In this document: in pieces, positions 2,003-15,299 of the stretch
Numbering within the stretch: position 1 is the first letter of the stretch
Layout of the letters: every line of letters starts with the position of its first letter
Origin: Minisyncoccota bacterium
GTDB taxonomy: Bacteria; Patescibacteriota; Minisyncoccia; Phycocordibacterales; UBA9973
NCBI GenBank assembly: GCA_017991395.1
Contig: JAGOQQ010000004.1
Span: 1-32,429 of the forward strand
Direction of reading: 5' to 3'
Length of the DNA stretch: 32,429 nucleotides
The notes under the pieces: generated by a model
Databases searched by the model: none
Told to the model about the DNA's origin: nothing
Seen by the model: the letters and a program-made list of their open reading frames with translations, nothing else
Made by a program: the position numbers and the translations under genes

Positions 2003-2848
2003 ATGGAACCACTACGAATACTCAAAATAAGTCGTCCGCGATTTTGGCTATATGAACTCGGGACATTTTTTATTGGTGCACTTACCGTTATTCCGACATA
2101 TGCTGAGCTCACAAGATATGATATTTTGCTGTACGCATTATTTTTCTTGCTCCCTGCAAACTTGCTCATATATGGAGTAAACGATATTTTTGATTATGAG
2201 ACTGATAAGAATAATCCAAAAAAAGGAGAGTATGAAGCGCTCGTTCATCCAAAAGAACACTCATCTCTGTACGCATGGATACTCATGCTCACACTTCCGT
2301 TTGCAGTGATAACCCTTTGGCTTCCACTTCCACACATTTTGGCATTTTATGCATTTATTTTCTTTGCAGTGTTTTATTCTGCAAAACCAATTCGAGCAAA
2401 AGCGCGCCCGTTTTTTGATTCATTTTTCTCAGCGGGACACTATATTGCAACCGGAGTTTTTGGGTACTATCTCGCAGGCGGTGAGCAGTTTCCATGGCTC
2501 GGTGTGATTGCGGGTATGTGTTGGGCAGTCGCCATGCATGCATTTTCTGCGATACCTGATATCAAAATGGACAAGGAGGCAGGATTGCAAACTATCGCGA
2601 CTCGACTCGGAAAATATCCTTCAATGCTTTTGTGTTCATTTCTTTACATTATTTCGGCACTCTTGATGTACTTTGTAATCGGCTGGTACGCCCTTTTTGC
2701 AGGAGTGGTGTATGTGGTGCTCGTGTACCACGCATACACGGCAAAATCGTACTATAGACTCTTCAAGATATATACCTACTTCCCATGGGTCAATGCTATT
2801 GTTCCAGCTGTGTGGTGCATGGGATATATCAAAGGGATTTTTTCTTAG
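2003..2848 (+). CDS. UbiA-family prenyltransferase, lycopene elongase-like
   Basis: A 281-residue polytopic membrane prenyltransferase of the UbiA superfamily. The first Asp-rich motif is NDIFDYETD (residues 60-68) and the second is DIKMDKEAG (186-194); both bind magnesium-diphosphate. The YSAKPIRAKARPFFDS stretch (125-140) is also typical. The opening SRPRFWLYELG and the run LLPANLLIYGVNDIFDYETD resemble haloarchaeal and actinobacterial lycopene elongases (LyeJ/CrtEb), which add C5 units to lycopene on the way to C50 carotenoids. The crtI-crtB-crtE genes lie about 600 bp away on the other strand, which supports that reading. The substrate is inferred; a generic quinone or other prenyl acceptor cannot be excluded. 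No UbiA partner genes for quinone or heme synthesis are seen here. Confidence 0.82.
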   Translation: MEPLRILKISRPRFWLYELGTFFIGALTVIPTYAELTRYDILLYALFFLLPANLLIYGVNDIFDYETDKNNPKKGEYEALVHPKEHSSLYAWILMLTLPFAVITLWLPLPHILAFYAFIFFAVFYSAKPIRAKARPFFDSFFSAGHYIATGVFGYYLAGGEQFPWLGVIAGMCWAVAMHAFSAIPDIKMDKEAGLQTIATRLGKYPSMLLCSFLYIISALLMYFVIGWYALFAGVVYVVLVYHAYTAKSYYRLFKIYTYFPWVNAIVPAVWCMGYIKGIFS

Positions 2849-2873
2849 ACTTTGCATTTTTCGAAAAAAAATG

Positions 2874-2879
2874 TATAAA
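2874..2879 (+). promoter_or_regulatory. Candidate -10 (TGTATAAAT) before the small membrane protein
   Basis: TATAAA preceded by TG lies 17 nt before the ATG at 2897, with an A-rich leader and no Shine-Dalgarno sequence. It is a possible secondary start, because the 48-nt gap after the prenyltransferase could also be simple read-through. Confidence 0.35.
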
Positions 2880-2896
2880 TAGAAAAAAAGAAAATC

Positions 2897-3376
2897 ATGG
2901 ACTCACTACAAATTCATAGTATATCGGTTCTCATTTGGGTATTCGTACTTGGGACAGTTGTTTACTATTTAAACGAAAATCGGGAAAAATTCCTATTGTC
3001 CTATCGATTGTGGCTTATCGTGGGATCTGCTGTATCAATGCTATTTTTGCTCTGGTCAATATGGGACACTAAAGGTACATTCTTATTCATTGTGTGGTCG
3101 TTGATATGGTCATACATAAAAATTTACAAAAACAGAGTTCATAGAAGTATTTTGCCATCGACAATTGATGACTCAAGTTTGCCTTTGAATAGATTTTTCG
3201 CTTATCCACAAATCAGGTACGGCAATTGGAATGTATACTCAACAGATTTCGCATTTAGAAGTACTGCGTATGTATGGCATGTCGCAAATGATCTAATCGC
3301 ATTCTTCTCTGTGTATATCATCGGAAGATTTCTCGAAAAAATTATTGTGAAAATCAGTTCGCTTTTTGAATTGTGA
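2897..3376 (+). CDS. Unknown small integral membrane protein
   Basis: A 159-residue protein of no recognised family. Four hydrophobic stretches are visible, roughly residues 6-25, 36-56, 60-77 and 126-146, separated by a polar loop (78-125) rich in Arg, Tyr and Asn. It has no signal peptidase site and none of the PxxxWD-type motifs of heterodimeric carotenoid cyclases. It follows the lycopene elongase-like gene by 48 nt and converges on the phytoene desaturase gene, so a role in carotenoid modification or membrane placement is conceivable, but only by position. The stop is TGA. Confidence 0.75.
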   Translation: MDSLQIHSISVLIWVFVLGTVVYYLNENREKFLLSYRLWLIVGSAVSMLFLLWSIWDTKGTFLFIVWSLIWSYIKIYKNRVHRSILPSTIDDSSLPLNRFFAYPQIRYGNWNVYSTDFAFRSTAYVWHVANDLIAFFSVYIIGRFLEKIIVKISSLFEL

Positions 3377-3395
3377 ATGTAAAATCGAATATTGC

Positions 3396-3423
3396 AAAAG
3401 CCCCAATTTCGGGGCTTTTTTTG
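3396..3423. terminator. Bidirectional Rho-independent terminator
   Basis: AAAAGCCCC (3396-3404) pairs with GGGGCTTTT (3411-3419) across a 6-nt loop. T-runs lie on both strands, so it serves both the plus-strand membrane gene and the minus-strand crt operon, whose last stop codon is at 3424-3426. Confidence 0.9.
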
Positions 3424-4947
3424 TTAGATTTTTTCAAGTGGATTTGCGGATTTGATGCCTTTGATTCTTTTGTACACAAGTTCAGCGGAAATAAGACATA
3501 TTGGCATACCGATTCCTGGATTTGTACCAGCACCTGCGTAGTAGAGATTTTTAACTTTTTTTGAGAAGTTGTTTGGGCGAAAGAGTGCAGTTTGTCGAAG
3601 TGTGTGGGCGAGACCAAGTGCGGTACCTTTGTATGCATTGTATGTACTATAAAAATCCTTTACACAAAAAGTTCTTGAAAATACAATGTGCTCATTGAGA
3701 TCTTGGATGTGTAGTTGCTCGCTGATTGTAGTAAGTATTTTTTGTTTGTAGTTTTCCAAATCACTTTCGGTATATTCGAGACCAGATGCTATCGGTACAA
3801 GTACAAACATATTTTCCATTCCTTCGGGTGCGACGGCAGGATCTGTTTTTGATGGTGTACAAATGTAGAGAGAAGGATCGGTGGGGAATTGTGGTGAGTC
3901 AAAAATCTGTTCGAAATTTGTCTTCCAGTCTTTTGAAAAAATAAGTGAGTGATGTACTAGTTCGGGAATTTTTTTGTTTACACCAAGATAGAGAATAAAT
4001 GCTGAAGGTGCCATTGTCTTTTTGCCCCAATACTTTTCGGGGTATTGTTGGTACTTTGTTTCAAGTAGTGCAGTTTCGGTGTGATGCATGTCTGCATTCG
4101 AAATCACAATATCTGCTTTGAGAATTTCTCCATTTACAAGCTCCACACCACACGCAGTACCGTTTTCAACCAGTATCTTTTTTACCGGTGAATTGGTGCG
4201 TATGCGTGCTCCATTTTTTTCTGCAATGTTTTTGAGTGCGGTCGGTACTTCAAATATTCCATTCTTTGGATAAAATACTCCCATATTAAAATCAATATGA
4301 TTCATAATATTGTACAAAGCCGGCGTATTGTAAGGCGATGAACCTAGGAAAACCAATTGGTATTCGATAATCTTTTGAATGATTGCAGATGAAAAAAATT
4401 TCCTTACATACGAGTGCATTTGAGAAAATACTTTGAGTCGTGAACCTTCAATAGCGACTCGTGGTGTGAGGAAATCAAATATAGAATTGTAGTTTTTGTA
4501 CATGAACTCATTCTTTGCAATGTCGTAGCTGTGCTTTGAGCGCGCAAGATAGTCGGTCAATTTTTCTGCAGAGCCCTTTTCAATATTTTCAAAAGTCTCT
4601 AAGTCTTTGGTGAGATCAGAGTACATGTCTACCACAAGAGGTGTACCGTCAGATTTCTTTTCATCTTTGAAAAAAATTCTATACGAAGGTGAAAGTTTTT
4701 GAAGAGTGAGATGGTCGTGTATATTTTCGCCCATAATTTTGAAATAGTGCTCAAAAATATCTGGCATCAAATACCAGCTTGGACCCATGTCAAATCGAAA
4801 ACCATCAGATTCAAAAATGTTTGCGCGTCCACCAACATGTTCATTTTTTTCTACAATAGTGACGTCATATCCGTCTTTTGCAAGATATCCCGCTGTGCCC
4901 AGTCCTGCGATTCCGGCACCTATTACTATTACTTTCTTTTTTTCCAT
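3424..4947 (-). CDS. crtI: Phytoene desaturase-family FAD oxidoreductase
   Basis: A 507-residue FAD-dependent carotenoid desaturase. The N-terminal dinucleotide fold has GAGIAG at residues 10-15, followed by the VEKNEHVGGRA segment that contacts FAD. The C-terminal part carries the family signature in YYAGAGTNPGIGMP, followed by a helix near the end. Length matches CrtI enzymes, which take phytoene through successive desaturations to neurosporene or lycopene. It is the last gene of trxB-crtE-crtB-crtI and overlaps the crtB end by 19 nt, so translation is probably coupled. Related enzymes (CrtN, CrtD, CrtO) share this architecture, so the number and position of double bases introduced is inferred from the crtB neighbour. 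Confidence 0.92.
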   Translation of the reverse strand: MEKKKVIVIGAGIAGLGTAGYLAKDGYDVTIVEKNEHVGGRANIFESDGFRFDMGPSWYLMPDIFEHYFKIMGENIHDHLTLQKLSPSYRIFFKDEKKSDGTPLVVDMYSDLTKDLETFENIEKGSAEKLTDYLARSKHSYDIAKNEFMYKNYNSIFDFLTPRVAIEGSRLKVFSQMHSYVRKFFSSAIIQKIIEYQLVFLGSSPYNTPALYNIMNHIDFNMGVFYPKNGIFEVPTALKNIAEKNGARIRTNSPVKKILVENGTACGVELVNGEILKADIVISNADMHHTETALLETKYQQYPEKYWGKKTMAPSAFILYLGVNKKIPELVHHSLIFSKDWKTNFEQIFDSPQFPTDPSLYICTPSKTDPAVAPEGMENMFVLVPIASGLEYTESDLENYKQKILTTISEQLHIQDLNEHIVFSRTFCVKDFYSTYNAYKGTALGLAHTLRQTALFRPNNFSKKVKNLYYAGAGTNPGIGMPICLISAELVYKRIKGIKSANPLEKI

Positions 4948-5780
4948 ACAATTGTTTTGATTAAGATAACTACTTTTCTAAGATTGGAAATTCTGTTTCG
5001 AGTTGCAAATACATTATAGTCCGCGTCCACTATTGCGTCGAGAATCGCTTCGTAGAATCTGGATGCCACACGTACTGCAAGTCGCCCGTGTCTATCAAGT
5101 AAGTCAATTCCTTCTTCTGCATCGGCATAAAGACGATGTGCACGGGCTACTTCAAATTTCATCATTGATTTAAAATTCTCATCGACAATGTGTCGCTTGA
5201 AGTGTTCCTCAGTGACGCCAAACTTCGTGAGACTTTCTTGTGGAATATATATTCGGTCACGCAATTCATAATCCTCTTTGATGTCCCGAAGGAAATTGGT
5301 CAGTTGCATAGCTTCAGAAAGTTTTTTTGCAAAGGGAAGCGCGCCTTCTTTGTGACCAATAAAAAGAGACATAGTGTATCCGACAATCGTTGCCGACCCG
5401 TACATATAGTCTTCGAGCTCTTGGTATGTGGTATATCGCGATTTGAATGTGTCTTGAATCATCGATTCAAAAAAACTCTCTGTATACTCGCGTGGGACTT
5501 TGTAGAGCGTGTAGTAGTATGCAAATGCCTTAATGTTTTGGTTTGTTGAGGGAGCACCATCGATATACGCATTCCACTCATTTTTATATTTCTCAATCAG
5601 ATTTTTTGCCGAATCTCTCGTGTTTCTAGTCGAATCCACTATTTCATCAACTTCACGCAAAAAACCGTAAAAAGAAAAAACTGCGAGCTTGATATTTTCT
5701 GGGAACAATATTGTCGCGAGATAATACGATGTGCTGTAGTTTTTTTGTACAGTAGATGGTTTTGGAATGTTGGTATTCAT
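4929..5780 (-). CDS. crtB: Phytoene synthase (squalene/phytoene synthase family)
   Basis: A 283-residue enzyme expected to condense two geranylgeranyl diphosphates head-to-head into phytoene. The first Asp-rich motif is DEIVD (residues 45-49). The second, RDIKED, is at 165-170 within the QLTNFLRDIKEDYELRDRIY region that identifies the family, followed by YIPQESL. The ATG at 5780 is preferred: an upstream in-frame ATG at 5828 would overlap crtE by 43 nt, whereas 5780 starts 5 nt after the crtE stop. Squalene or dehydrosqualene synthase are alternatives within the fold; the adjacent desaturase and long-chain diphosphate synthase favour phytoene. Confidence 0.92.
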   Translation of the reverse strand: MNTNIPKPSTVQKNYSTSYYLATILFPENIKLAVFSFYGFLREVDEIVDSTRNTRDSAKNLIEKYKNEWNAYIDGAPSTNQNIKAFAYYYTLYKVPREYTESFFESMIQDTFKSRYTTYQELEDYMYGSATIVGYTMSLFIGHKEGALPFAKKLSEAMQLTNFLRDIKEDYELRDRIYIPQESLTKFGVTEEHFKRHIVDENFKSMMKFEVARAHRLYADAEEGIDLLDRHGRLAVRVASRFYEAILDAIVDADYNVFATRNRISNLRKVVILIKTIVWKKRK

Positions 5781-5785
5781 TGGAT

Positions 5786-6808
5786 TTAGGCAATACGATT
5801 TGCGAGACGTGATAGTAGAACTGCCCATGTGTTTTCTTTTTCGCCAAGTAATGAAATTTTATTCTCGGCATTTTCGAAGTGAGTTTTGATTTCACTTTTT
5901 GCAAACTGGAGTGCACCAGAAGATTCGAACAGTTCTTGGGCGATTTTTATTTCATCTTCGGTCAATGAGCGCTTTGAAAGCTGATTGAGTGTGTCTTGTG
6001 TTGATTGAGGACAATGCTCTTTTATGTAAAAACTAAGGAGAGTCTCTTGTCCGTTATACAAATCTTGCAAAGGTGTTTTCTTCGTGTCTTTTTTTGATCC
6101 GTAAATATCAATAATATCGTCAGTAATTTGATAAATAATTCCAAGCTCTTCTCCGAGGCTGAAATATAGGGCTTCATCCTTTGAATTGATTTCGGAAAGC
6201 ATTGCACCAATTTGCATCGGTCGAGCAAAAGAGTATCTCGCTGTTTTGAAGAGCATTCGTTCTCGAATCATTTCTTTTGTCACTTTTTTCTCGAACGGAA
6301 TGCGTATATCAAGCATTTGACCTGTGATGACTTCATCGACAAGCTCAAAAAATAATGGCAACGCACGTATGCCTTTTCCTTTTGAAAATAATTCATACGC
6401 AAATGAGAAAATTAAATCACCGAGCAAAATCGCTTCGTATTTGCCTTGGAGATTTTTGTTTGGGAGATCCTCGTAACAATTTTCTGAAAATGAGTTCATT
6501 GATGCGACACCATGTCGAGTCAATGCTTCATCCATGATGTCATCGTGAACAAGTGCAAAAAGATGAAGAAGCTCAATCCCCACAAGTTGGTCGCAAATTT
6601 CGCGTGCATCATCAAAAGCATGTGCACCATATGAAAGTGCCATCACATACGGGCGGATACGCTTTCCGTTTTTTGCGAGTTCGTAGGTATGAGAAAGAAG
6701 CCCATGAATATGGGTGTTGTGTACACGCTTTTTGGTTCGAGATAGTAGTCTATCCAGTTCACTCAAAAAAATTTCATCAAAAGAATGTTTGAATGATTCA
6801 ATATCCAT
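5786..6808 (-). CDS. crtE: Polyprenyl diphosphate synthase, probably GGPP synthase
   Basis: A 340-residue trans-prenyltransferase that would build geranylgeranyl diphosphate for CrtB. Both catalytic Asp-rich motifs are present: DDIMD (residues 89-93) and DDIID (230-234), with the KNGKRIRP substrate-binding segment at 47-53. The residue five places before the first motif is Phe84 and the fourth is Ala85, a pattern that in archaeal-type enzymes goes with a C20 product. It sits 12 nt after trxB and 5 nt before crtB. A longer-chain octaprenyl-type product is possible, but operon context argues for C20. Confidence 0.92.
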   Translation of the reverse strand: MDIESFKHSFDEIFLSELDRLLSRTKKRVHNTHIHGLLSHTYELAKNGKRIRPYVMALSYGAHAFDDAREICDQLVGIELLHLFALVHDDIMDEALTRHGVASMNSFSENCYEDLPNKNLQGKYEAILLGDLIFSFAYELFSKGKGIRALPLFFELVDEVITGQMLDIRIPFEKKVTKEMIRERMLFKTARYSFARPMQIGAMLSEINSKDEALYFSLGEELGIIYQITDDIIDIYGSKKDTKKTPLQDLYNGQETLLSFYIKEHCPQSTQDTLNQLSKRSLTEDEIKIAQELFESSGALQFAKSEIKTHFENAENKISLLGEKENTWAVLLSRLANRIA

Positions 6809-6820
6809 GTTTATGGAGTG

Positions 6821-7747
6821 TTATCGCGTTTTTAGCCACACATATATATCTTCGAGCGCTTTGACTGCATCGCCTGTAGCAATATTGTTTTGATGGTAGA
6901 GGCCGTTTGTAGCGTCTCCGGCAGACCAAATACCTTCGACTGAGCTACGCTGTGTCCACGGGTCGACAACAATTTTCTTGTTGTCATCGAGAGTGACGAG
7001 ATCTTCAACAAGTCCTGTGTTTGGAATTTGTCCTACCTCAACAAATATTCCCGTGGTTGCTATTTCGTGCGTATCGCCTGAAATTTTGTCTTTGTAGACA
7101 AGTGAAGAAACAAATTTGTCACCTTTGACTTCGAGAAGCTCGGCATTTGTGATTGCTTTCATCTTTGGATTGGCAAGAACTTTTTCGACAGTGATCTTGT
7201 CTGCTTTAAAATCGGCACTTCGGTGAATGAGTGTAACACTTTTGCAGTATGCGAGAAGTTGGGCAGCAGTCTCAAATCCAGCGTTTCCTCCGCCAATCAC
7301 TACAACGTCTTGGTCAGAAAAAAGTGGGCCATCACATGATGCACAATACGTGATACCTTTGTGTTCAAAAATATCTGCACCCGGAATTGTGAGCTTTCGT
7401 CGTCCAGAACCAGAGGTGATAAGTACAGATTTTGCCAAAAGTTCCTCGCCATTTTCAAGTGTCAATTTAAACTCTTCATCAACTTTTTCTACCTTTGATA
7501 CATTGAAACCTTCCTTCAGTGTGAGGAATTTGTTTTCATACGCTTTCATGTGAGCGCGAAAAGATTCAGCGAGTGCGTGTCCGCTAATTTCAGGAGTTCC
7601 AATCCAGTTGTAAATTGTTTCTGATACGGTTGATTGACCGCCAATTTCTTTGGCAACAAGAAGGGTATTTAGTTGTTTTCGAGCAGCGTAGACTGCACCC
7701 GCTGTTCCGCCTGGGCCTGCGCCGATAATGATGAGATCGTAAATCAT
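6821..7747 (-). CDS. trxB: Thioredoxin reductase-like flavoprotein
   Basis: A 308-residue NAD(P)H-dependent disulfide reductase. The FAD fold opens with GAGPGG (residues 9-14). The redox-active pair is CASC in the ITYCASCDGP segment (about 135-138). The pyridine-nucleotide fold GGGNAG follows, and the C-terminal FAD motif is GIWSAGDAT. Length is that of low-molecular-weight thioredoxin reductases. It is the first gene of an operon with crtE, crtB and crtI, an unusual partner that might supply redox balance or simply share the promoter. No thioredoxin gene is in the window; the electron acceptor is unknown. The leader holds a 7-nt periodic repeat also found before frr and rseP. Confidence 0.93.
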   Translation of the reverse strand: MIYDLIIIGAGPGGTAGAVYAARKQLNTLLVAKEIGGQSTVSETIYNWIGTPEISGHALAESFRAHMKAYENKFLTLKEGFNVSKVEKVDEEFKLTLENGEELLAKSVLITSGSGRRKLTIPGADIFEHKGITYCASCDGPLFSDQDVVVIGGGNAGFETAAQLLAYCKSVTLIHRSADFKADKITVEKVLANPKMKAITNAELLEVKGDKFVSSLVYKDKISGDTHEIATTGIFVEVGQIPNTGLVEDLVTLDDNKKIVVDPWTQRSSVEGIWSAGDATNGLYHQNNIATGDAVKALEDIYVWLKTR

Positions 7748-11326: not shown

Positions 11327-11980
11327 TCACGAGGGGTTTTTTTCTATTCTAATCATACCATTCGTAGTATCTACGCTTATGGTGATTTTATGACGTTCTT
11401 TGCTGTCATTAAAATCTGTCCCAGAAATCACAATTGAGTCAACTTTTGTTTGTGAAAGGATATCCTTAATTTGGTTTTCAAGAACCAAATTGACGCTTTC
11501 TGAGTCTATCTGTCCATATGTCCGGGTACTCTTTTTCGTCACTTGTTCAGGAGTTAGGTCTTTAGTCATCTTTGCCTTGACGACGTACCCGGCCTTCCAT
11601 TGCTCGTTGTGTTCCAGAGTCAGTACTGCTTTGTCGTCTTTGATTGTGAGGCAGGGGTAATATTCCTTGCCATAACGGATATAGGGCGAGCCGAACGCAA
11701 CAAAATCGATCTTCGTTTTGTAGTCGGAGCGGTTTTCTTTTGCTACCGTGGAGAGCAGATCGAAGATGTCTGCGGGCCCCGCTGCTCCTTGCACTTTCGC
11801 GCGGCAAATAGATTCAAGGATATCTTCTGTGGAATAATGGTCCATTAGAGTACGAACCATAAGTTGTCTACCTAGGGTTGATTCTTCTACTGGAGGAAAG
11901 TTTGTGTCATTGAGGTCTGAATCCTCAATCAGAACTCCTGTTTGCGCACAGAGTTCGGTTAATGTGATTTTTTTTCCCAT
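11327..11980 (-). CDS. Unknown soluble protein
   Basis: A 217-residue, hydrophilic protein of no family I recognise. It has no signal peptide, membrane segment or obvious catalytic motif. The N-terminal third (residues 1-80) looks helical. A middle part (about 90-130) has alternating aromatic and charged residues (FGSPYIRYGKEYYPCLTI) that suggest beta structure. The last 70 residues are rich in beta-branched residues. The gene is monocistronic: it has its own consensus promoter, a leader of about 105 nt and its own terminator, unlike the leaderless housekeeping genes. That could mark a regulated or acquired gene. No function is proposed. Confidence 0.8.
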   Translation of the reverse strand: MGKKITLTELCAQTGVLIEDSDLNDTNFPPVEESTLGRQLMVRTLMDHYSTEDILESICRAKVQGAAGPADIFDLLSTVAKENRSDYKTKIDFVAFGSPYIRYGKEYYPCLTIKDDKAVLTLEHNEQWKAGYVVKAKMTKDLTPEQVTKKSTRTYGQIDSESVNLVLENQIKDILSQTKVDSIVISGTDFNDSKERHKITISVDTTNGMIRIEKNPS

Positions 11981-12205: not shown

Positions 12206-14149
12206 TTATAGGACATCATCCGGATCAACAATAATCCTCATATATGGAGGTTGTTGTGTGAGTAGCCGAGAAAGCGTTGGATTGAGACGGCCTTTTTTTG
12301 AAATACTTGAAAGTGTCCATTCTAGACGCGGAACCTTGAGAACAAGTGTGAGCATATATATGTCGCCGATTCGCTTGATAAACGAATTGCAGTACTCACC
12401 TTCAAAATCCTTGAATTCTTCATTGAGCCGAATTTGCTCTTTTTCAACAGCAGGCAGATTGCCCGAAACAGAGAGCTTGATGATTGTAGACCACGGAGGG
12501 TACTTGAGAATTTTACGAATTTTTAGTTCTTCACGATACAGCTCGAGAAGATTGCTTCCAATAAATGCTTTGAGCACATCATTTTCTGGATACTTCGTTT
12601 GAATGATTGTTATGTTTTCAGAAAGATTGTGAAGGGTATATAGTACAAACAATGCTTTTTCGTTTATTCGAAAACTTGGAATTGAAAATAAAGAATCAAA
12701 AGACACCACGGCAGTGAGTCGTACTTTGTGTTTCAAATAATTGAACAAGACCTCAGTTCCAAGAGCGATGGCACGTTCTTCTTTGTAAAATTGTTTTGCG
12801 AGCGCGTCACCTTTTTTGCGAGTTGAAACTGTGTCTTTGTCGAACACATAAAGAGGTACGTCAGGGAAAAGAGCTTTGATTTCTTCGAGTACTCGCTCGG
12901 TGCCGATTCCAAGCGGTGCGAGATTCCAGCTCCCACATACTCCACAGTTCATATGACTATCAGATTCTTCACCACATTTGTTGCACATAAATACTCTTGA
13001 TTCAGGAGTCGCACCTTTGTAGAGGACCAGCGGAGCGTTGCATTTTGGACATGGAAGAGTGGTCCCGCAGTCGTTGCAGACAGTGAGTGGCGCGAGGCCT
13101 TTTCGAAGTGCAAATAGCGCACAGTGTCCTGTGTGGTCAAGTGTTTTTTTGATTTCAGATATAAGCTCATCCGAAAGTGCACGCCATTCTATTTTGCGAG
13201 TTTGCCTAAATCCGACTTCATTTTTTTCTCGACGAGTATCGACAAGTCGAAGTCGCTCACTTGAAGACATTCGAAATGTTGGTGGTGCGACTTCACCGAG
13301 TTCTCCGCTGTCTTTTCGCAAAAGTGTTTCGGGACGAAGTAGTGTGTCGCCAAGAATGAATTTCATTTTTGCATGCCGTGCATACAGCTCTGCAAATATT
13401 CGCGCATCTATATATGGACGACGAAGGGATTTGAATGCACTCGAACTTTCTCGCTCAATGATGAGTGTGCCAAGATCGTGACGTGGAATTCCTAAGAATC
13501 CTGGAGTGATGAGTAGAAGTACAGGATGAGTTTCTGCACGAAGTTTTTTTAGATGTTCAAGCTGTGTGATTTCGCGTTCGTCACTATGAAAAATAAACGT
13601 GTACTCTTCGATTCCTTTTTTGAGTGCGTCTTGATAGTGTTCGATATCGTGAATTGTGGGAAGGCAGATTATGACTGATTGCTTTTTTGCAAAAGATTCA
13701 CGAACAAATGTTTTGTAGTATGAAATTCGGTCATCAAAAGATGCTTGGAAGATGAGTCGTTCACTCATGATGCCGTCATCAACAATTTCTTTGTATTCAA
13801 TTTTTTTCTGTGCTGGTTCTTTGAGAAGTGTTTCCGACAAAAGTGAAGAGAGGATGATGCCAGTGTGAGATGCGAGATAGTCTTTGATTTCTTTGACTGC
13901 TGAAAGAAATGCCGGAGGAAGTGAAGATGGTCCTTTGACTTTGTCTATTTTCTTCATAACAAAGCTTGCTGATTTTACGTCAGCCTTTTCGACTTCTGCA
14001 TCACCACAGTCGATCACAATTCCGGAGATATATTTTTTTCGAACAGGAATACTCACAATATCTCCGATATCAACTTCTTTGGCAGTAAAGTATGTCAGGT
14101 GTTCTTTTGTCATCCCTTTGGCTAGAGGAAGTACCTTGACGACTTTCAT
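12206..14149 (-). CDS. priA: PriA-like primosomal protein with degenerate helicase motifs
   Basis: A 647-residue homologue of PriA, the replication-restart factor. The family is shown by the eight-cysteine zinc module: C358, C361, C367, C370, then C389, C392, C402 and C405. The N-terminal DNA-binding barrel (LAKGMTKEHLTYF, GDIVSIPVRKK) and the C-terminal ALKYPPW-like block (KILKYPPWSTIIKL) also match. The ATPase motifs do not. The Walker A position reads IFQASFDDRISYY (133-145), the DEEH box is ERES (232-235), and the ATPS and arginine-finger motifs are also lost. So it probably binds DNA or partners without unwinding. ATG 14149 is preferred over 14191 because it begins the conserved MKVVKVLPLA and has TATGCT 12 nt upstream. 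Confidence 0.88.
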   Translation of the reverse strand: MKVVKVLPLAKGMTKEHLTYFTAKEVDIGDIVSIPVRKKYISGIVIDCGDAEVEKADVKSASFVMKKIDKVKGPSSLPPAFLSAVKEIKDYLASHTGIILSSLLSETLLKEPAQKKIEYKEIVDDGIMSERLIFQASFDDRISYYKTFVRESFAKKQSVIICLPTIHDIEHYQDALKKGIEEYTFIFHSDEREITQLEHLKKLRAETHPVLLLITPGFLGIPRHDLGTLIIERESSSAFKSLRRPYIDARIFAELYARHAKMKFILGDTLLRPETLLRKDSGELGEVAPPTFRMSSSERLRLVDTRREKNEVGFRQTRKIEWRALSDELISEIKKTLDHTGHCALFALRKGLAPLTVCNDCGTTLPCPKCNAPLVLYKGATPESRVFMCNKCGEESDSHMNCGVCGSWNLAPLGIGTERVLEEIKALFPDVPLYVFDKDTVSTRKKGDALAKQFYKEERAIALGTEVLFNYLKHKVRLTAVVSFDSLFSIPSFRINEKALFVLYTLHNLSENITIIQTKYPENDVLKAFIGSNLLELYREELKIRKILKYPPWSTIIKLSVSGNLPAVEKEQIRLNEEFKDFEGEYCNSFIKRIGDIYMLTLVLKVPRLEWTLSSISKKGRLNPTLSRLLTQQPPYMRIIVDPDDVL

Positions 14150-14285: not shown

Positions 14286-15299
14286 ATGGGACTTTTTTCT
14301 AAGAAAATCGGTATTGATCTCGGTACCGCTAATACGCTTGTATTTATTCCCGGCAAAGGGATTGTTTTGAATGAGCCTTCTGTGGTCGCAGTATCTGAGG
14401 TGGACAACAAGATTTTGGCAATCGGAATTGACGCAAAAGAAATGATCGGGCGAACTCCGGAGAGTATCATTGCGTATAGACCACTCAAAGACGGCGTAAT
14501 TGCAGATTATCGTATCACCGAAGCGATGCTTCGCTATTTCATCACAAAAGCACTCGGGCCGTACAATCTTTTTAAGCCTGACGTGATGGTATCTGTTCCG
14601 GCAGGTGTGACTTCGACAGAAAGACGTGCGGTAATCGAAGCGACAATCAAAGCGGGTGCGCGAAATGCGTACGTGGTCAAAGAGCCAATCTTGGCGGCAA
14701 TTGGGGCAGGTATTCCAATTCAACAATCGCTTGGACATATGATTGTGGACATTGGCGGAGGTACGACAGACGTCGCGGTAATTTCGCTCGGAGGAATCGT
14801 GGCATCAACCTCTGTAAAATGTGCAGGAAATAAAATTGATCAAGCGATTGCGGACTATATTAAAAAAACATTCAATCTCGCAATTGGAGACAAGACAGCT
14901 GAATATGTGAAAATCAAAATCGGCGCAGCGGTGCCACTTGAAGAAGAGCTCACAATCACAATCAAAGGACGAGATTTCATCCAAGGTCTTCCGCGTTCGG
15001 TACAAATTTCAACAAATGAAATTGTTCGCGCCATCGACAAAGAACTTCGCAATATCATCAAAGCTATCAAAGACGTCCTCCAAGAAACTCCGCCTGAACT
15101 TGCGTCAGATATCATTGATCAAGGTATAATCATGACAGGAGGCACATCAGAACTTCGTGGTCTTCCAGAACTCGTGTATCGCAAGACCGGCGTAAAAGCA
15201 GTACTTGCCGATGAAGCACTTTTTTGTGTTGCAAAGGGAACTGGAATTGCACTTGAGCACTTGGATACATACAAGAAAGCGATTATCACTAAAAAATAA
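14286..15299 (+). CDS. mreB: Rod-shape determining actin MreB
   Basis: A 337-residue bacterial actin that guides peripheral peptidoglycan synthesis. Motifs: KIGIDLGTANTLVF (phosphate 1, residues 7-20), VDIGGGTTDVAVISLGG (phosphate 2), and MTGGTSELRGLPELV (adenosine). Length and sequence are typical. The open frame runs far upstream to 13884, but the upstream part lies over priA in antisense. ATG 14286, which begins MGLFSKKIGIDLG as in other MreBs, is the true start. No mreC or mreD follows; the next gene is holB-like, 6 nt on, forming an operon. Presence of MreB, FtsZ, FtsA and MltG implies a cell wall. Confidence 0.97.
   Translation: MGLFSKKIGIDLGTANTLVFIPGKGIVLNEPSVVAVSEVDNKILAIGIDAKEMIGRTPESIIAYRPLKDGVIADYRITEAMLRYFITKALGPYNLFKPDVMVSVPAGVTSTERRAVIEATIKAGARNAYVVKEPILAAIGAGIPIQQSLGHMIVDIGGGTTDVAVISLGGIVASTSVKCAGNKIDQAIADYIKKTFNLAIGDKTAEYVKIKIGAAVPLEEELTITIKGRDFIQGLPRSVQISTNEIVRAIDKELRNIIKAIKDVLQETPPELASDIIDQGIIMTGGTSELRGLPELVYRKTGVKAVLADEALFCVAKGTGIALEHLDTYKKAIITKK

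Follow-up and report, generated by a model that had tools for sequence, protein, structure and literature searches.

We analyzed a window of 32,429 nucleotides from a genome of the Minisyncoccota. Its minus strand carries a priA-like gene whose reading frame begins with an ATG at 14149 and ends with a stop at 12206. The frame is intact over its 647 residues, as the original prediction, made from the letters alone and without naming a strand, had held; the plus strand across the same interval contains many stops. A pseudogene or frameshift was ruled out, as the frame is unbroken and members of the order also lack stops. The protein has TIGR00595 (PriA) as its best family, with 204.5 bits (E = 2.5e-60) against a cut-off of 230.35, and a sequence comparison retrieves PriA chains of the PDB at E = 5.6e-29 or so stated best value. 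The NCBIfam PRK14873 models, which we take to represent actinobacterial PriA, score it worse than TIGR00595 does. At the N-terminus, the match to the 3′ DNA-binding domain (PF17764) reaches 22.5 bits (E = 1e-4; cut-off 22.7). Judged by sequence, homology to PriA is clear even though the TIGR00595 equivalog cut-off is missed. A second, intact PriA in the same genome was ruled out, as TIGR00595 finds this gene and otherwise short, weak matches to other helicases.

The gene adjoins mreB (14289–15299) in divergent orientation, and the two are neighbors in 32 loci of the order; this recurrent pairing points to vertical inheritance of priA. On its other side, a minus-strand gene (11327–11980) encodes a 217-amino-acid protein that has no Pfam match and was not seen beside priA in the loci of relatives. 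Farther away, positions 2003–7747 hold a carotenoid-type cluster (UbiA prenyltransferase, CrtI-like desaturase, phytoene synthase, and polyprenyl synthase) in what is a 763-kb Patescibacteria genome.

Table 1. Features of the priA-like gene, with window coordinates
Feature	Residues	Coordinates	Strand	Basis
priA-like gene, catalytically degenerate (pseudohelicase)	647 aa	12206..14149	(-)	frame, profiles, model, pattern scan
3′-end DNA-binding domain, N-terminal	1-105	13835..14149	(-)	PF17764, model, linker lengths
Former RecA-like lobe 1; fold retained in model	131-282	13304..13759	(-)	predicted model
Former motif I/Walker A, QASFDDRI; Arg141 at catalytic Lys position	135-142	13724..13747	(-)	alignment
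Former motif II/Walker B DEEH, IIERESS	230-236	13442..13462	(-)	alignment
Former motif III, GDTLLRPE; order consensus GDTLLRVE	267-274	13328..13351	(-)	alignment
Zinc module, eight cysteines	358-405	12935..13078	(-)	alignment, pattern scan
Former motif V, IALGTEVLFNYLKH; GTQ to GTE	461-474	12728..12769	(-)	alignment
Motif VI site; GRxGR arginine-finger segment deleted	505-513	12611..12637	(-)	alignment
PriA C-terminal domain	526-647	12209..12574	(-)	PDB sequence matches, model

Alignment to Escherichia coli PriA reveals how thoroughly the motor has been rewritten. GVTGSGKT has become QASFDDRI, DEEH has become ERES, GSATPALE has become GDTLLRPE, and GTQMLAKGHHF has become GTEVLFNYLKH; nothing remains of the GRAGR segment. 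Three elements can still be recognized: motif IV (LFALRKGLAP versus LFLNRRGFAP), the IQT strand, and, within motif V, the GT. The original prediction had called Walker A and DEEH unrecognizable, and it placed both correctly, QASFDDR on GVTGSGK and IIERESS on VIDEEHD. Its further claim that the later ATPase motifs are unrecognizable slightly overstates the loss, given the three elements just listed. A pattern scan of the whole 647-residue protein found no GKT/GKS, DEE/DExH, SATP, or GRxGR, so the catalytic motifs have not been displaced elsewhere in the protein; such displacement, the counter-evidence named in the original prediction, was thus looked for and ruled out. The protein therefore lacks the signature of a PriA helicase (Walker A, DEEH, SAT, and GRxGR) and carries that of a pseudohelicase of the Deinococcus radiodurans type, with the Walker Lys replaced by Arg (Arg141) and a poor Walker B (IIERESS). 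The same scan located four CxxC pairs, whose eight Cys residues (358/361/367/370/389/392/402/405) lie inside lobe 2.

An AlphaFold2 model built with 78 sequences (pLDDT 93.1, pTM 0.91) predicts a confident, full PriA fold with the 3′ DNA-binding domain, two RecA-like lobes, and the C-terminal domain; being a prediction, it is not a structure from which nucleotide binding can be read. The nine best structural matches in the PDB are all PriA chains, led by the E. coli PriA–PriB–fork complex (8fak; TM 0.77, E = 1e-39) and followed by a winged-helix deletion (6dcr), with the ADP-bound structure 4nl4 lower (TM 0.66). Two of the checks originally proposed, structure prediction and motif-by-motif alignment, thus agree on a retained fold and lost motifs. 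Identification as PriA from the eight zinc cysteines and the C-terminal block is likewise borne out by the family profile, the PDB matches, the CxxC pairs, and the predicted fold. Linker lengths leave no room for a winged-helix domain after residues 1–105 in this protein or in intact Patescibacteria PriA. A tie between loss of the winged helix and loss of the motor was accordingly ruled out, since the intact proteins also lack this domain. The stretch before motif I is about 20 residues shorter in motorless than in intact Patescibacteria PriA.

We aligned the motifs of 187 homologues, comprising 51 intact PriA and 47 pseudohelicases from the order, 71 from elsewhere in the class, and 18 from elsewhere in the phylum. 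In intact PriA, the catalytic K, T, D, E, and Q are each present in 51/51 proteins and the motif VI arginines in 51/51 and 50/51. At the Walker Lys position, where all 51 intact proteins have Lys, the 46 alignable order members all have Arg (one more has a gap). The Walker B Asp is changed to Glu in 42/47 order members and the following Glu mostly to His, Arg, or Lys; in motif V, Glu replaces Gln in 40/47, and the column of the second motif VI Arg is a gap in all 47. Recurrence of the same changes in every aligned order homologue argues against chance. Motor loss extends to 71/77 aligned homologues from the rest of the class, leaving 6 intact, and to several other Patescibacteria lineages. Whole-clade sharing, which the original prediction had suggested checking, was therefore found across the order and most of the class. 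A five-row alignment search of public genome records returned relatives in Candidatus Nomurabacteria, Vogelbacteria, Terrybacteria, and other Paceibacterota.

The zinc Cys residues are complete in 43/47 order members, 69/71 other class pseudohelicases, and 16/18 from the rest of the phylum; three order members have lost the second set. The second set is replaced in L097 (G061), L125 (G241), L096 (G309), L156 (G425), and L176 (G252), and also in one otherwise intact helicase, L181 (G137). Within the order, the derived motif II, III, and V sites lie at the 83rd to 89th percentile of conservation, and motif I as a whole and the motif VI sites show no elevation. Strongly conserved derived positions include GTEMAL.YL, GDxLLRxE, ExESS, and W408 (47/47).

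A PriA profile matched in all 40 genomes of a first set drawn from the family and order, about 35 of them with a stop-free frame of roughly 600–750 amino acids; the weak or broken matches come from a few small or fragmented assemblies. Across the class, the order profile matched at a threshold of 1e-10 in 156 of 287 genomes that are at least 90% complete, leaving 131 with no PriA match at that threshold. About 14 of the 156 look intact, as judged by score and by where the TIGR00595 match starts. Intact and motorless PriA coexist in the phylum, and because the sample was chosen by score, their ratio there is not a census.

The motor appears to have been lost repeatedly. With the motif columns left out of the tree, there are four changes of P-loop state, and five when the longest rows are also removed; we count at least four losses in the phylum. 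A motorless group (G611/G350) falls with an intact protein of the same family (G638), motorless G662 sits among intact class members, and motorless G252 adjoins G137, an intact protein from its own family. The hypothesis that all losses share one origin was rejected (lnL difference 257, p-AU 2.7e-5; 32-row set, simple model). How deep the main motorless clade lies is uncertain because of long branches.

Whole-gene dN/dS in close pairs spans 0.07–0.21 for motorless PriA and 0.05–0.21 for intact PriA, and lobes 1 and 2 taken alone in motorless pairs give about 0.06–0.19; these values are rough, because most pairs have a nearly saturated dS. Such low values in the former ATPase lobes speak against neutrality and fit a protein needed as a scaffold. 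The view that the loss was selected and does not reflect recent decay is upheld by the clade-wide loss, the intact frames, the confident fold, and the low dN/dS of the lobes.

The genome encodes DnaB, at G000:C3:61787-63088, along with RecG and two UvrD-family proteins, so unwinding could come from other helicases. No DciA was found in this genome, and a single sub-cut-off match was found among 21 relatives; searches of the genome detected no DnaC/DnaI beyond a DnaA-sized match and no DnaD/DnaB_2. DciA, DnaC/DnaI, and DnaD were accordingly dropped as candidate partners of PriA. The RecG of this genome (G000:C1:85850-88339, L192) contains an insert of about 150 amino acids between motif II (DEQHRFG) and motif III (SMTATPIPRT), which matches PDDEXK_3 (PF13366) at E = 4.7e-33; in most relatives, the RecG match spans this place in one piece and has no such insert.

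As the original prediction proposed, the loss of the motor would be best explained by replication restart that needs no unwinding, or by a change of role. The E. coli enzyme provides a guide: the K230R substitution, Lys to Arg alone, abolishes ATPase and helicase activity, and ATPase-dead variants, K230R included, still assemble primosomes (PMC4504706). Within the preprimosome of E. coli, a swing of the zinc module encloses the lagging strand in a pore and exposes the docking sites (PMC13377028). The parts retained here are those of this docking function, from which we infer fork recognition and DnaB docking without remodeling. We think it probable that the protein is a PriA pseudohelicase that binds forks and helps to reload DnaB while Rep/UvrD-like or RecG helicases unwind. 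Its ancestor would have been an ordinary PriA helicase that gave up its ATP-binding, hydrolytic, and arginine-finger residues and kept the 3′-end DNA-binding domain, both RecA-like lobes as a scaffold, the eight-Cys zinc module, and the C-terminal domain. The pseudohelicase would recognize abandoned replication forks, hold the lagging-strand single strand in the zinc-module pore, and dock DnaB, directly or via an unknown partner, to reload the replisome. The nascent lagging strand would be unwound by another helicase (UvrD-family or RecG), or not at all.

Other explanations fit parts of these data. PriA could have left restart to become a structural or regulatory protein that binds forks or single-stranded DNA, for example a general DnaB-loading helper that might also act at the origin where known loaders are lacking. 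The presence of DnaB alongside undetected DciA, DnaC/DnaI, and DnaD/DnaB_2 loaders would suit such a role, as would the strong conservation of the derived positions, yet the many class genomes without PriA must load DnaB some other way, and the loader families may simply have diverged too far for detection; we regard this explanation as unlikely. A more specific proposal for the Paceibacteria, that the erased ATP site was rebuilt as a conserved latch and that motorless PriA serves as the main DnaB-loading adaptor, is speculative and seems to us rather improbable. Here, the Arg that substitutes for the Walker Lys, the acidic residues E232/E234/E466, and the excision of motif VI would hold a state like the fork-bound one, and the protein would be the main adaptor where DciA, DnaC/DnaI, and DnaD go undetected. 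The same altered and conserved sites (Arg141, E232, E234, and E466), together with two folded lobes, could instead be read as a cryptic, rebuilt nucleotide site in a protein that is still an ATPase or helicase. This we consider very improbable, given that the Lys, the catalytic Glu, and both motif VI arginines are all gone and that K-to-R by itself kills E. coli PriA (PMC4504706).

The possibility of slow decay, in which reductive evolution removes the motor, then the zinc module, and then the gene, draws on proteins found elsewhere in our sample. Reduced relics exist: three proteins of 573–607 amino acids lack the motif I region (L193/L195/L197 from G565/G600/G617), one of 457 amino acids has a reduced zinc module (L196, G041), and one of 407 amino acids has no zinc module (L194, G048). 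The second zinc set is gone in the three order members noted above, and priA is absent altogether from some genomes, including near-complete G624 and G649 of the window's own family; this outright loss in close relatives indicates that the restart role is not indispensable everywhere. Decay does not, however, account for low dN/dS in every domain, for stop-free frames across the order, or for a confident full fold whose derived residues are conserved anew over dozens of genera. It is already weakened by the selection data, and we judge it unlikely.

Fork binding and DnaB reloading by a pseudohelicase thus remains our preferred reading. In this large class of ultra-small bacteria, most PriA proteins are motorless, a form that arose several times and would offer evidence from nature that PriA docking can be uncoupled from the motor. 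The independent losses provide comparisons for finding residues important in fork recognition and DnaB reloading. Motorless PriA is itself of a known kind, from Deinococcus; the apparent novelty lies in its spread across the clade, in how much more deeply the motor is erased, in the renewed conservation of the derived motifs, and in the repeated origin. Our search found no literature on PriA motifs in Parcubacteria or Patescibacteria, which is not proof that none exists.

Several known proteins invite comparison. Database annotations describe actinobacterial PriA as having no detectable helicase motifs; on that description, it would be a further naturally motorless PriA, in an unrelated lineage. 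Intact Patescibacteria PriA (e.g., G564, G300, and G091) share the domain plan of the window protein, including the absent winged helix, but retain a GxTGSGKT-type Walker A, DEEx, SATP, GTQ, and mostly GRxGR. The E. coli and Klebsiella proteins (8fak, 6dcr, and 4nl4) share the fold, the 3′ DNA-binding domain, the RecA lobes, the eight-Cys module, and the C-terminal domain; the window protein differs in lacking the catalytic motifs and the winged helix, with about 18% identity over the structural alignment. Deinococcus–Thermus is described as the exception to an almost universal conservation of PriA helicase motifs among bacteria; the D. radiodurans protein, which has Arg for Lys, shows neither ATPase nor helicase activity but still binds forks and DnaB (Lopper et al. 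2015; PMC4504706). The resemblance to this protein is close, as both have Arg for the Walker A Lys, a poor Walker B, and PriA architecture without a working motor. In the window protein, however, each of motifs I, Ia, II, III, V, and VI has been rewritten or removed, VI by excision. The hosts in this case are Paceibacteria/Patescibacteria, the derived motifs have become conserved anew, and the loss took place at least four times in the phylum.
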